The notes beneath the pieces were generated by a model that was not told where the DNA came from, searched no databases, and saw only the letters and a program-made list of their open reading frames with translations. From assembly GCA_029250825.1 (NCBI GenBank), contig JAQXEN010000085.1:1-64000 (forward strand): a stretch of DNA of 64,000 bases, given 5' to 3'. A program made the translations under genes and the position numbers. This document shows positions 57,603-60,824 of the stretch, in pieces. Origin of the DNA: Porticoccaceae bacterium. Its GTDB lineage: Bacteria > Pseudomonadota > Gammaproteobacteria > Pseudomonadales > Porticoccaceae. Each line of letters begins with the position of its first letter. The stretch's first letter is position 1.

Positions 57603-57634
57603 CTTAATCAATGACCATATGGTCTATGATTAAG
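57603..57634. promoter_or_regulatory. 32-bp near-perfect palindrome, candidate operator
   Basis: Arms CTTAATCAATGACCAT and ATGGTCTATGATTAAG match at 14 of 16 positions, with a perfect 12-bp core GACCATATGGTC. It lies 70 nt upstream of the acyl-CoA dehydrogenase start and 68 nt before the phosphorylase start. The size and symmetry are those of a TetR- or MerR-type site; no such regulator gene is adjacent. Confidence 0.6.
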
Positions 57635-57701: not shown

Positions 57702-58550
57702 ATGTTGGGAATTATTGGCGGTTCAGGGTTTTATCAGCTCAAGGAATTACAACTCCACAGAGAGCGAAGTTTAGTTACGCCCTTTGGAGCCACATCTTCA
57801 GCGATCAGCTGTGGTCAATACAATGGCCAGCCAGTATTGTTTCTTGCCCGCCATGGCAGCGATCATCAACTGCTGCCCCACGAGATTAATTATCGCGCCA
57901 ATATCTATGCCCTCAAGTCTCTCGGTGCACGGCGTATCATTTCTTTTTCTGCCGCCGGCAGCCTGCGCAAAGACCTCAAGCCCGGGGATTTGGCACTGGT
58001 TGAGCAGTATTTTGATCACACCAAAGGCCACCGCGCTCAGAGTTTTTTTGGCAATGGTGCCGCCGCCCATATAACCACTGCCAACCCGGCCTGTGTCACG
58101 CTTAACAACGATATTAAACGCGCCGCGGACAGCCTCGATCAGTCAGTCCATATGGGCAAAAGCTATGCCTGTGTCGAGGGTCCACGACTGGGCACTCGCG
58201 CCGAAAGCTTCTTTTTACGGGATGCAGCCAACTGCGACTTAGTGGGCATGACTAATCTGCCTGAAGCATTTCTGGCCCGTGAAGCACAGATTGCCTATAG
58301 CTCCCTTTGCTTGATTACCGACTATGACTGTTGGATGGATGACCCCAGCCAACATGTGAGTCTGGATAAATTCTTTGAGGTCTACAGCGGCACTCTAGCC
58401 CGGGCACTGCGGATTTTAACACCGCTGCTAGCCACCCCCTTTTCTGAGACTCCGAGCAATATTAGACAGGCACTGCGAAGCGCATTGCTAACACCTCGAG
58501 ACCAACTTAGCAGCTCTCAGCAACAGTGGCTTGAGGTGTTGGAACGTTGA
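57702..58550 (+). CDS. mtnP: MTA phosphorylase-type nucleoside phosphorylase
   Basis: 282 residues from ATG 57702 (upstream TTG rejected). PNP/MTAP family: G-I-I-G-G-S-G-F (3-10), LARHGSDHQLLPHEINYRAN phosphate and ribose region (about 47-66), E-G-P-R-L-G-T-R-A-E-S (about 163-173) and MTNLPEAFLAREA (about 185-197). The purine pocket reads T-D-Y-D-C-W (about 206-211), the form found in adenine-specific 5'-methylthioadenosine phosphorylases, rather than the 6-oxopurine form. It probably splits MTA or 5'-deoxyadenosine to adenine plus the sugar 1-phosphate. Overlaps the next gene by 4 nt. Confidence 0.85.
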   Translation: MLGIIGGSGFYQLKELQLHRERSLVTPFGATSSAISCGQYNGQPVLFLARHGSDHQLLPHEINYRANIYALKSLGARRIISFSAAGSLRKDLKPGDLALVEQYFDHTKGHRAQSFFGNGAAAHITTANPACVTLNNDIKRAADSLDQSVHMGKSYACVEGPRLGTRAESFFLRDAANCDLVGMTNLPEAFLAREAQIAYSSLCLITDYDCWMDDPSQHVSLDKFFEVYSGTLARALRILTPLLATPFSETPSNIRQALRSALLTPRDQLSSSQQQWLEVLER

Positions 58551-59203
58551 TTCAGTCAGTATTGGCTGAGGTGTCTATTATTATCCCCCTGGCTGCTGGC
58601 GAGAATCAGCAACAGTACCTGCTCGCCGATCTGGCCAGTAGACCATTGCAGGCTGAGATTATTAAGAGTTATCAAACCAGTTCAGAACAGAGCCGCGCCA
58701 GCAGTCTCAATGCCGGAGCCGAACAAGCGGTGGGTCCGTGGCTATGGTTTTTGCATGCTGACAGCCGTGTCAGTCAGGATAATCTCCGCGCCCTTGAGCA
58801 CAGTCTGGAGCGAGACCAACAGAGGGCTGCCCTGCACTACTTTGACCTAGGTTTTATAGCTGGCGGCCCTCTCTTGAGCACCAGCGCTCGCGGCGCCAAC
58901 CTGCGCTCTCGGTTGCTGATGTGCCCCTACGGAGATCAGGGATTTTGCATTTCAAAGCAACTGTTTTTAGCCCTCGGCGGCTTTCCCGAAGGGCACGCCT
59001 GCGGTGAAGATCTACTACTTGTCTGGCGCGCCCATCAGGCTGCTGTGGCACTGCAACCCATAGCCTCCACACTGCTTACCAGTGGTCGAAAATACCATCG
59101 GCAGGGCTGGCTCAAAGTCACGGCTTTACATCAGTGGTATTGGCTGCGCCTATCGCTGCCCGAGCTGTTTAAGCTTGCAGTGCAGCGCTGTAGACGGCGA
59201 TGA
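58547..59203 (+). CDS. Family 2 glycosyltransferase of the TIGR04283 (arsenosugar-type) group
   Basis: 218 residues. TTG start overlapping the phosphorylase stop (TTGA) with GAGGT about 10 nt upstream. GT-A fold elements: V-S-I-I-I-P-L (9-15), W-L-W-F-L-H-A-D-S-R (about 65-74, D-x-S metal motif) and YGDQGFCISKQLFLALGGFPEG (about 126-147). The LHAD and Y-G-D-Q-G-x-F patterns are those of the group named for arsenosugar biosynthesis. Sugar donor and acceptor are unknown. Coupled on both sides. Confidence 0.85.
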   Translation: MIQSVLAEVSIIIPLAAGENQQQYLLADLASRPLQAEIIKSYQTSSEQSRASSLNAGAEQAVGPWLWFLHADSRVSQDNLRALEHSLERDQQRAALHYFDLGFIAGGPLLSTSARGANLRSRLLMCPYGDQGFCISKQLFLALGGFPEGHACGEDLLLVWRAHQAAVALQPIASTLLTSGRKYHRQGWLKVTALHQWYWLRLSLPELFKLAVQRCRRR

Positions 59204-59880
59204 ATTTCCCCCAAAGCCGCACCGCGATCGCTATCTTTGTGAAAACCCCTGGCCTCTCGCCGATTAAAACCCGTCTCGCCAGATCCATAGGCCAGCTTGC
59301 CGCCGAGAGTGCCTACGGCCTCTGTATAGGGGCCATAAAAGAAACCCTTATAAATGTCAGTGCAGACAGCTACTTTGCTGTAGCCGAACAGGAAGGACTC
59401 AGCGATCCTCTATGGCAGGGACTGGAGTGTATTCACACAGGCCCCGGTTGCCTTGGCCAGCGTCAGCATCACATTTATCAGCAACTTCTAGAACGTTACC
59501 AGCAGGTTATTTTAATCGGCTCCGATAGCCCCCAGCTCACAGCCCAAGGATTACAGCAGGCAATTGAAGCACTAAAAACCGAGCAATTTGTTGTCGGCCC
59601 AGCAGTAGACGGCGGCTACTACTTATTTGCCGGAAGGCGTCAACTAAGCCAAGAATTTTGGACCAACCTTTCTTATAGCTGCCCTGAAACCTGTACCAAC
59701 TTGCTCGTCGCCCTGCCCGTCAAAGCAGCCCTGCTAAAGCCATTAACCGATCTGGATACAGTGAATGACCTGCCCCTGCTACAGTACCAATTGCGTGAAC
59801 TGGGCACAGCTATCAATCCGCAACAGCAGGCTCTGATAAGCTGGCTTGAGGATCGACTTACTGGAGCTAAAGTGCATTAG
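59200..59880 (+). CDS. DUF2064 / TIGR04282 nucleotidyl- or glycosyltransferase-like protein
   Basis: 226 residues, overlapping the previous gene by 4 nt (ATGA). V-K-T-P-G-L-S-P-I-K-T-R-L-A (about 14-27) is the nucleotide-binding start, L-I-G-S-D-S-P-Q-L (about 105-113) and G-P-A-V-D-G-G-Y-Y-L (about 130-139) the metal and product sites. The fold is that of CofC/MobA nucleotidyltransferases, and proteins of this group nearly always accompany TIGR04283 glycosyltransferases. It might activate the sugar phosphate released by the phosphorylase, which is inference. Confidence 0.85.
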   Translation: MNFPQSRTAIAIFVKTPGLSPIKTRLARSIGQLAAESAYGLCIGAIKETLINVSADSYFAVAEQEGLSDPLWQGLECIHTGPGCLGQRQHHIYQQLLERYQQVILIGSDSPQLTAQGLQQAIEALKTEQFVVGPAVDGGYYLFAGRRQLSQEFWTNLSYSCPETCTNLLVALPVKAALLKPLTDLDTVNDLPLLQYQLRELGTAINPQQQALISWLEDRLTGAKVH

Positions 59881-59888
59881 CACTTCAA

Positions 59889-60824
59889 TCAGTCAGCCAC
59901 CGAGCAGCTGCCGCCACCCAACACACAAAAACTTGCGCAATGAGGATGATTGAGCGACACAGTTTGCTGGGCTTCCAGCAAACTCCGCCCCAGATTAAAT
60001 TGCTGATCGTAGGCCAACAATGTGCAGGCCATTACTGCAGGCTGAGGGTCGCCATTGCGCACCACCACCATCCGCGATGAGGCACACATCATGGCATCTG
60101 GGTCTATATTGAGAATCTGCCAACAATCTTCAGTGATCTCCGGCAGATTGGGGCCAGCGGTAATCTCCGGAAACAGCACCAAAGCTTTTTTATCAAAGGC
60201 ATCCAGTTGAATGCCGTGCTGTTTAAATAACGCAGCATAGCCCTCGCGCAATTGCTGTTCATCTTCACCCCAAATTCTGCGCCCAGCGATATCAATATTA
60301 AAGCCCTGCTGGGACAGCCAGCAGAGTCCATCGACCATTGGCTGCCAAGATTTTGGCCCCCGCTCCTGCTGGTGCAGCTGCTTATCAAAGTGATCCATAG
60401 AGACTCGTAGTGTCAGCCGCTCGCCATAGCGCTTTTGTAGCGCCAGCAAACCAGTCTGCCGTTTTAGCATTGGCCGCATAGCATTAGTTAATACCAGAAG
60501 ACGAAAACCACGGCGCAGAATCAATCCCATAATGGCAATAATATCTGGATTGAAAAACGGTTCGCCGCCGGTTAAGCCAATCTCCTGAGTAGCCAGATTA
60601 TGGAGCTGAATCTCATCGAGAAACTGCTGTACCTGACTGACACGGATAAATTCCAAGCGATTATTGGTGGGGGATGATTCAATGTAACAATGGCTACAGG
60701 CGAGATTGCACAGAGTGCCGGTGTTAAACCAGAGGGTTTTAAGCTGCTTGAGCTGGACACTGGCCCGCGGGCATCCGGTCGCGGTAAACAGTGGGTTAGA
60801 GAATTTTTCGAGCTGAGTATCCAT
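59889..60824 (-). CDS. Radical SAM protein with C-terminal cysteine-rich extension
   Basis: 311 residues from ATG 60824 (TTG at 60830 rejected). The SAM cluster motif is Cys39-x3-Cys43-x2-Cys46 (TLCNLACSHCY), followed by G-L-T-G-G-E-P-F-F (about 82-90). The C-terminal part has further cysteines (about 244, 264, 296, 300, 307; ending C-V-L-G-G-G-S-C), a pattern that could bind an auxiliary Fe-S cluster as in SPASM/Twitch enzymes. It is not the ArsS family by eye. It converges with the phosphorylase-glycosyltransferase operon, 8 nt between stop codons. Substrate unknown. Confidence 0.85.
   Translation of the reverse strand: MDTQLEKFSNPLFTATGCPRASVQLKQLKTLWFNTGTLCNLACSHCYIESSPTNNRLEFIRVSQVQQFLDEIQLHNLATQEIGLTGGEPFFNPDIIAIMGLILRRGFRLLVLTNAMRPMLKRQTGLLALQKRYGERLTLRVSMDHFDKQLHQQERGPKSWQPMVDGLCWLSQQGFNIDIAGRRIWGEDEQQLREGYAALFKQHGIQLDAFDKKALVLFPEITAGPNLPEITEDCWQILNIDPDAMMCASSRMVVVRNGDPQPAVMACTLLAYDQQFNLGRSLLEAQQTVSLNHPHCASFCVLGGGSCSVAD

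Follow-up and report, generated by a model that had tools for sequence, protein, structure and literature searches.

A putative arsenosugar-type gene cluster in a marine SAR92-type bacterium, with a radical SAM enzyme that may stand in for ArsS

Four adjacent genes have been analysed at positions 57702 to 60824 of a 64,000-nucleotide stretch of DNA (hereafter the window; contig JAQXEN010000085.1, positions 1 to 64,000 of the forward strand, assembly GCA_029250825.1) from a Porticoccaceae bacterium, a marine SAR92-type organism whose 2.33-Mb draft genome is 91% complete. They encode an MTAP-type nucleoside phosphorylase, a family 2 glycosyltransferase, a CofC-like protein and a radical S-adenosylmethionine (SAM) protein, P0004, belonging to an unnamed family which is designated rSAM2 here. 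Judged from sequence comparison, the locus is probably an arsenosugar-type biosynthetic cluster in which the rSAM2 protein takes the role of ArsS. In seaweed, arsenosugars are the principal form of organic arsenic; they also stand at the base of marine food-chain arsenic, and the steps following adenosylation in their synthesis are, to our knowledge, not settled. What is new here is a probable arsenosugar-type cluster with a radical SAM enzyme other than ArsS and with a built-in phosphorylase. The literature covered (titles, abstract starts and passages among the matches listed, with few subscription journals) described neither a second radical SAM family replacing ArsS nor an arsenosugar phosphorylase; one report, citing Cheng 2021, describes a radical SAM enzyme that adenosylates arsenic in oxo-arsenosugar biosynthesis (PMC12159101). 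A first-pass annotation, made from the window alone, had guessed at radical SAM adenosylation, adenine loss and glycosylation in a nucleoside-derived, arsenosugar-type route. Comparative evidence supports this core, and the interpretation as a whole is supported in part.

The distribution of the two radical SAM families supports this reading. Within 293 genomes of the order, 52 matched rSAM2 at E ≤ 1e-10; 40 of these (E ≤ 9e-37) were counted, including one with a decayed copy (G202) and one cut by a contig end (G179), while the other 12 had weak matches only (E 2e-14 to 1e-10) and were all ArsS genomes. ArsS was present in 103 genomes, always over its cut-off, and no genome held both enzymes, where 14.1 would be expected (Fisher two-sided 1e-8, relatedness ignored). 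Shuffling within families gave a p value of 5e-5, which is rough since family labels are known only for the listed genomes. The two types are found in different genomes of six families, and even of one genus, where G110 has ArsS and G044, G161, G183, G204 and G224 have rSAM2. A TIGR04283-type glycosyltransferase (E ≤ 1e-20) has been detected in 38 of the 40 rSAM2 genomes (not in G202 and G262) and in 102 of the 103 ArsS genomes. With rSAM2 and ArsS excluding each other and the glycosyltransferase accompanying both, the pattern is that of a single position in the pathway which one or the other radical SAM enzyme occupies. The TVP38-FAD oxidoreductase gene, which adjoins rSAM2 in 13 of 38 loci (the 40 rSAM2 genomes of the order minus the window's own and G179) and ArsS in at least 5 of 20 loci, fits this view.

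The genes and motifs on which the comparison depends are the following.

57702-58550, plus strand: MTAP-type nucleoside phosphorylase P0001, 282 aa, ATG start; matches to PF01048, TIGR01694 and PDB 4glf
58269-58271, plus strand: codon of F190 of P0001 (context PEAFLAREAQ), from the phosphorylase alignment
58317-58334, plus strand: TDYDCW motif, residues 206-211 of P0001, from translation and alignment
58547-59203, plus strand: TIGR04283-like family 2 glycosyltransferase P0002, 218 aa, TTG start; matches to TIGR04283 and Glycos_transf_2
59200-59880, plus strand: DUF2064/TIGR04282 CofC-like protein P0003, 226 aa; matches to DUF2064, TIGR04282, TIGR03552 and PDB 3cgx
59889-60824, minus strand: radical SAM protein P0004, 311 aa, rSAM2 subfamily I; Radical_SAM match and rSAM2 alignments
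60687-60710, minus strand: CxxxCxxC (C39/C43/C46), motif for the SAM-binding 4Fe-4S cluster, invariant in both rSAM2 alignments
59904-60125, minus strand: C-terminal cysteines C234, C247, C267, C296, C300 and C307 of P0004, conserved in the homologue alignment

The phosphorylase and glycosyltransferase genes share 4 nt (TTGA), as do the glycosyltransferase and DUF2064 genes (ATGA), and the DUF2064 and radical SAM genes converge with 8 nt (59881-59888) between their stops, a layout which the first-pass annotation had described correctly in every respect. All four proteins pass a general Pfam cut-off.

P0004 scores 56.3 bits against Pfam Radical_SAM (cut-off 29.5), has no SPASM match in the Pfam search and stays under the cut-off for every NCBIfam model shown. 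Membership of ArsS (TIGR04167) has been rejected, with 62 bits against a cut-off of 300 and a match in the radical core only; the best TIGR04167 match in the genome is 61.8 bits, in agreement with the earlier statement that no recognisable arsS is present. Membership of the Rv1681 family (NF049973) has likewise been rejected, as the 91.9 bits lie far under the cut-off of 380 and cover residues 30-206 only. An alignment of 17 sequences divides rSAM2 into subfamily I, which has CYIESSP in the motif region and includes P0004, and subfamily II, which has CLEGSxP and 30-37% identity to P0004 in that alignment; C39/C43/C46 and the C-terminal cysteines are common to all 17. Among 46 aligned subfamily-I homologues, C234, C247, C267, C296 and C300 are invariant and C307 is kept in at least 90%, so that the extra C-terminal cysteines pointed out earlier are real and conserved, and this stretch probably forms an auxiliary Fe-S cluster region. 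They had also been taken to set P0004 apart from ArsS, which does not appear to hold: ArsS has a comparable set, and in a whole-family profile alignment the last five of the six rSAM2 cysteines align with ArsS cysteines. In this comparison, 114 rSAM2 sequences were combined into a profile, which matched 24 ArsS sequences from position 28 to position 316 of 326 (E 5e-16). A structural model of P0004 (mean confidence, pLDDT, 90.6; unreliable at residues 307-311) is similar to SuiB, BlsE, SkfB and other radical SAM enzymes. The hits of a structure search were unspecific, ranging over SPASM maturases, viperins, MoaA and further radical SAM enzymes, and do not narrow the substrate.

For the two glycosyltransferase-like proteins, TIGR04283 and TIGR04282 are by far the best matches, though both fall under cut-off. 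P0002 scores 142.6 bits against TIGR04283 (E 1.3e-41, cut-off 182) and 24.3 bits against Glycos_transf_2 (cut-off 23.3), and no relative was found in the PDB at E ≤ 0.1. P0003 scores 72.9 bits against DUF2064 (E 2.6e-20, cut-off 25.8) and 123.4 bits against TIGR04282 (cut-off 134). It also matches F420_cofC TIGR03552 (E 0.0014, 18.3 bits, far under the cut-off of 105) and PDB 3cgx, a 'putative nucleotide-diphospho-sugar transferase' (E 5.8e-13).

Neighbourhoods in relatives place ArsM and the window's genes together. A scan of species-level genomes with subfamily-I peptide patterns gave at least 583 relatives (tblastn E ≤ 1e-3), and the best 80, at 54-88% identity, were examined over neighbourhoods of up to 6 kb, many of the contigs being shorter. 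Named records among them include uncultured Pseudomonadales, Porticoccaceae metagenome-assembled genomes (MAGs) and SAR92 bacterium L125, whose contig is that of congener G262. The four genes of the window recur with their flanks, without ArsM, in the four closest relatives found (L121-L124) and, rearranged, in the distant relatives L038-L040 and L053. Near rSAM2, the best 80 scan loci hold a phosphorylase in 23, a CofC-like gene in 23, the glycosyltransferase in 20 and ArsM in 14 (in L130 as a 107-aa piece). In the 38 order loci, where ArsM and ArsC assignments are best matches under cut-off, ArsM is near rSAM2 in 11 and the phosphorylase in five (L035 with an extra piece at a contig edge). 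Phosphorylase, glycosyltransferase and CofC-like genes occur together in four of the 38 (L038-L040 and L053), the first three of which also have ArsM and an ArsC-like gene, in the order CofC-like, ArsM, rSAM2, ArsC-like, phosphorylase, glycosyltransferase. ArsM, phosphorylase, glycosyltransferase and CofC-like genes converge on rSAM2 in L131, L135 and L136, and in L126 and L133 with an additional ArsC-like gene. In L135, a Porticoccaceae MAG, ArsM lies between the phosphorylase and acyl-CoA dehydrogenase genes, and the locus shares the flanks of the window (acyl-CoA dehydrogenase 71%, DoxX-like 53% and carboxylesterase 57% identity); given these flanks, the window cluster is a version without arsM of a cluster that, in a relative, includes this gene and occupies the corresponding place on the chromosome.

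Reduced loci have also been detected in congeners. In G202, a deletion joins the first phosphorylase codons to a decayed rSAM2 gene in which the C-terminal part is missing and the third cysteine of CxxxCxxC is gone. Such a naturally decayed cluster, with a phosphorylase start fused by deletion to a degenerate rSAM2, is seen at 9780-10634 of L037. The phosphorylase, glycosyltransferase and CofC-like genes are absent from the locus of G262. A palindrome, GACCATATGGTC, lies at 57613-57624 of the window, between the acyl-CoA dehydrogenase and phosphorylase genes; as it is retained in two congeners (L033 and L037) that have no intact phosphorylase, it is probably part of the dehydrogenase gene.

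A search of plasmids returned two records, from Marinobacter, with few neighbours, and from Roseomonas, with informative ones. On the latter (L204, 5034-11994), rSAM2 is found by TIGR04282, DUF547 and a second radical SAM gene (459 aa), together with a PhnDEC-type importer and a metallophosphoesterase, which possibly form an uptake and processing extension of the pathway. In L070, L056, L067, L069 and similar loci, rSAM2 is followed by sodium:solute symporter-like (~467 aa) and metallophosphoesterase-like (~316 aa) genes, functions that were read by eye from the sequence and the annotation of L205.

Several observations weigh against an arsenosugar product or against the part given to these genes in making it. 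No ArsM match at E ≤ 1e-25 was found in the window genome, in agreement with the earlier claim of no arsM, which holds for the whole 91%-complete assembly; a match is likewise missing from all seven order genomes with subfamily I, from 24 of the 40 rSAM2 carriers in the order sample and from 33 of the 50 genomes of a second set. All four window proteins fall under the relevant NCBIfam equivalog cut-offs, as do the ArsM (181.2 of 263 bits) and ArsC-like (139.5 of 174.3) proteins of L038, and the top NCBIfam match of the P0004 radical core is the Rv1681 family and not ArsS. The ArsS alignment ends at position 213 when the profile is limited to subfamily I, or when only one ArsS sequence is compared, and two control radical SAM proteins also aligned in the core only (139 and 82 columns). 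All in all, rSAM2 and ArsS look like distantly related families, but the specificity of the C-terminal match is uncertain. As for linkage, 46 of the 80 scan loci have no other query gene near rSAM2, L132 has ArsM, glycosyltransferase, CofC-like and rSAM2 genes and no phosphorylase nearby, and the phosphorylase is near ArsS in only four of 20 loci (L102, L106, L109 and L117). No MTAP match was found in the rSAM2 genomes G076, G200 (which has a piece at a contig edge) and G262, the last of which keeps an intact rSAM2 with phosphorylase and glycosyltransferase found nowhere in its genome. The glycosyltransferase occurs in 27 genomes having neither rSAM2 nor ArsS, and L131, a Thiobacillus MAG, carries both radical SAM enzymes.

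The second set, 50 rSAM2 genomes taken from the head of the list of 80 scan genomes, shares at least three (L125, L137 and L140) with the first set; ArsS was found in one of the 50 (L131) and the glycosyltransferase in 46 (one and 44 of 47 when these three are left out). The genome of L131 (G303 contig 16, L203) has a cluster of ArsS, TVP38, glycosyltransferase, CofC-like and ArsM genes in addition to the rSAM2 cluster; it is the only double carrier among the 50 and may be a binning artefact. Independence of the radical SAM and phosphorylase genes from the glycosyltransferase pair, which the first-pass annotation had named as evidence against itself, is thus seen in part locally, in the 46 isolated loci, and is not seen genome-wide, with the glycosyltransferase in 38 of 40 and 46 of 50 rSAM2 genomes.

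The scarcity of ArsM bears on the possibility that rSAM2 adenosylates a non-arsenic substrate, another element or a small metabolite; the cluster would then make a non-arsenic 5-substituted riboside, and ArsM would be a secondary addition to some clusters. The importer, second radical SAM gene and metallophosphoesterase of the Roseomonas plasmid would also suit such a substrate. This explanation is nonetheless unlikely, though not negligible, since separate lineages have ArsM within the cluster itself, L135 even at the chromosomal position that the window cluster occupies, and since an ArsC-like gene accompanies ArsM in L038-L040. An ArsM match is also missing in 35 of the 103 ArsS genomes, so its absence is not peculiar to rSAM2. 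In the closest sister, ArsM lies beside a low-molecular-weight phosphatase (ArsC-like) gene on another contig, and absence from the window genome may therefore reflect incompleteness; the best match of this ArsM in the window genome has an E of 9.4e-8 (31% over residues 65-176). The earlier suggestion that the product may not contain arsenic at all keeps the missing ArsM matches on its side, and it has become less likely with arsM found in the clusters of relatives. In G006, G049, G133 and G310, the ArsM reading frame is interrupted by a single TGA, which may encode selenocysteine or reflect a damaged frame.

The phosphorylase raises a separate question. P0001 scores 129.4 bits against PF01048 (cut-off 25.1) and 264.8 bits against TIGR01694 (cut-off 274.85), has 4glf as its best PDB match (E 1.7e-67), and is the only MTAP match detected in the window genome. 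The pocket reported in the first pass is present as TDYDCW, which we take to be the motif of adenine-specific MTAPs; among the 36 rows of the alignment, in which some loci are present twice, T206, D207, D209, C210 and W211 are each kept in 97% or more. A methionine-salvage MTAP (TIGR01694) shares family and adenine-site motif with P0001; this assignment was rejected, with the score under cut-off and mtnA (TIGR00512), the only salvage gene searched for, not found in the window genome. The complete methionine salvage elsewhere that was raised earlier as a counter-argument has thus not been seen as far as mtnA can tell. The arsenosugar-type setting and F190 are further differences, mtnA is present in just one of 23 genomes tested (G076), and both an MTAP match and the glycosyltransferase are missing from five congeners of the order sample (G159, G202, G222, G262 and G281). 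As no mtnA was found here and these congeners lack MTAP, the phosphorylase is probably not part of methionine salvage.

P0001 might still perform housekeeping removal of 5'-deoxyadenosine or 5'-methylthioadenosine (MTA) from radical SAM or polyamine metabolism, incidental to the sugar pathway and compatible with an arsenosugar product. MTAP-family enzymes accept MTA, the adenine-site motif is intact, and a phosphorylase is near rSAM2 in only 23 of 80 and five of 38 loci and near ArsS in the four noted above. We give this a low probability, as the five congeners do without any MTAP and the linkage recurs in both rSAM2 subfamilies with differing gene orders. Moreover, among 30 distinct phosphorylases, a comparison covering aligned loci only, position 190 is F in 24, all rSAM2-linked and including the window, and K in six (three ArsS loci and three alphaproteobacterial rSAM2 loci).

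An ArsL-like reaction of rSAM2 that leaves MTA over would give such a phosphorylase a sensible task. ArsL of the arsinothricin arsQML genes is, like the enzyme proposed here, a radical SAM enzyme acting with ArsM on arsenic; it differs in transferring the 3-amino-3-carboxypropyl (ACP) part of SAM, and the available part of its description names no glycosyltransferase or phosphorylase in the three-gene arsQML (PMC8552651), a comparison made by description and not by sequence. This alternative appears improbable, since it leaves unexplained both the TIGR04283-type enzyme in 38 of 40 rSAM2 genomes and the mutual exclusion with ArsS, and no mtnA was found to use methylthioribose-1-phosphate. That the locus is no more than a chance grouping of a common MTAP, a pair of glycosyltransferase-like genes and a radical SAM gene with no connection to them, as the 46 isolated rSAM2 loci could suggest, is scarcely credible, being contradicted by four-gene clusters recurring in alpha- and gammaproteobacteria and by the genome-wide co-occurrence with the glycosyltransferase.

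The arsenosugar reading is best seen against the ArsM/ArsS pathway, which is said to have been described for Synechocystis by Xue in 2019 and Cheng in 2021. In both, the proposed key step is the adenosylation of arsenic by a radical SAM enzyme, and both have TIGR04283- and TIGR04282-like partners, C-terminal cysteine sets that look comparable and, in many relatives of the window, ArsM; the window differs in that its radical SAM protein is of another family, found instead of ArsS, in that its cluster includes a phosphorylase, and in that no ArsM was found in its genome.

From the computed genes, families, linkage, ArsS exclusion in the sampled order, glycosyltransferase co-occurrence and mtnA absence we infer substrates and a step order, the latter less certain than the arsenosugar reading itself. 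P0004 would cleave SAM and attach its 5'-deoxyadenosyl group to a trivalent arsenical that is already methylated. The phosphorylase would then exchange adenine for phosphate, giving 5-deoxy-5-dimethylarsinoyl-ribose-1-phosphate in the alpha form, which the CofC/DUF2064 protein, by its family and fold, may convert to a nucleoside diphosphate (NDP) sugar. Finally, the GT2-type inverting enzyme would pass the sugar on to an acceptor, for example glycerol or a glycerolipid. MTAP-type phosphorolysis yields an alpha-1-phosphate and GT2 enzymes invert, so the product would be a beta-riboside, as natural arsenosugars are. Because arsM is missing from the cluster here and in the closest sisters, the methylated arsenical is proposed to be imported, for example as dimethylarsenate (DMA) that phytoplankton release, or to be the product of an ArsM encoded where the genome has not been assembled. 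Phytoplankton produce DMA in detoxification, and its methyl groups are oxidised by a SAR11 strain in culture (PMC6426599); marine heterotrophs can therefore meet and take up this compound.

More tentatively, and with somewhat less than even confidence, it may be proposed that rSAM2 is a second, widespread arsenic adenosyltransferase family replacing ArsS across alpha- and gammaproteobacteria, that the cluster reveals the middle part of arsenosugar synthesis as a sequence of phosphorolysis, nucleotidyl activation to NDP-arsenoribose and inverting transfer, and that ArsM-less marine carriers use methylated arsenic from phytoplankton. On this proposal every step has its candidate enzyme, encoded by an operon of three genes and a fourth gene next to it, a set compact enough for reconstitution. 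Surveys based on ArsS alone would overlook many possible producers, namely 40 of the 293 order genomes (in one of which the gene is decayed) and at least 583 relatives from the scan, of which the best 80 were examined.

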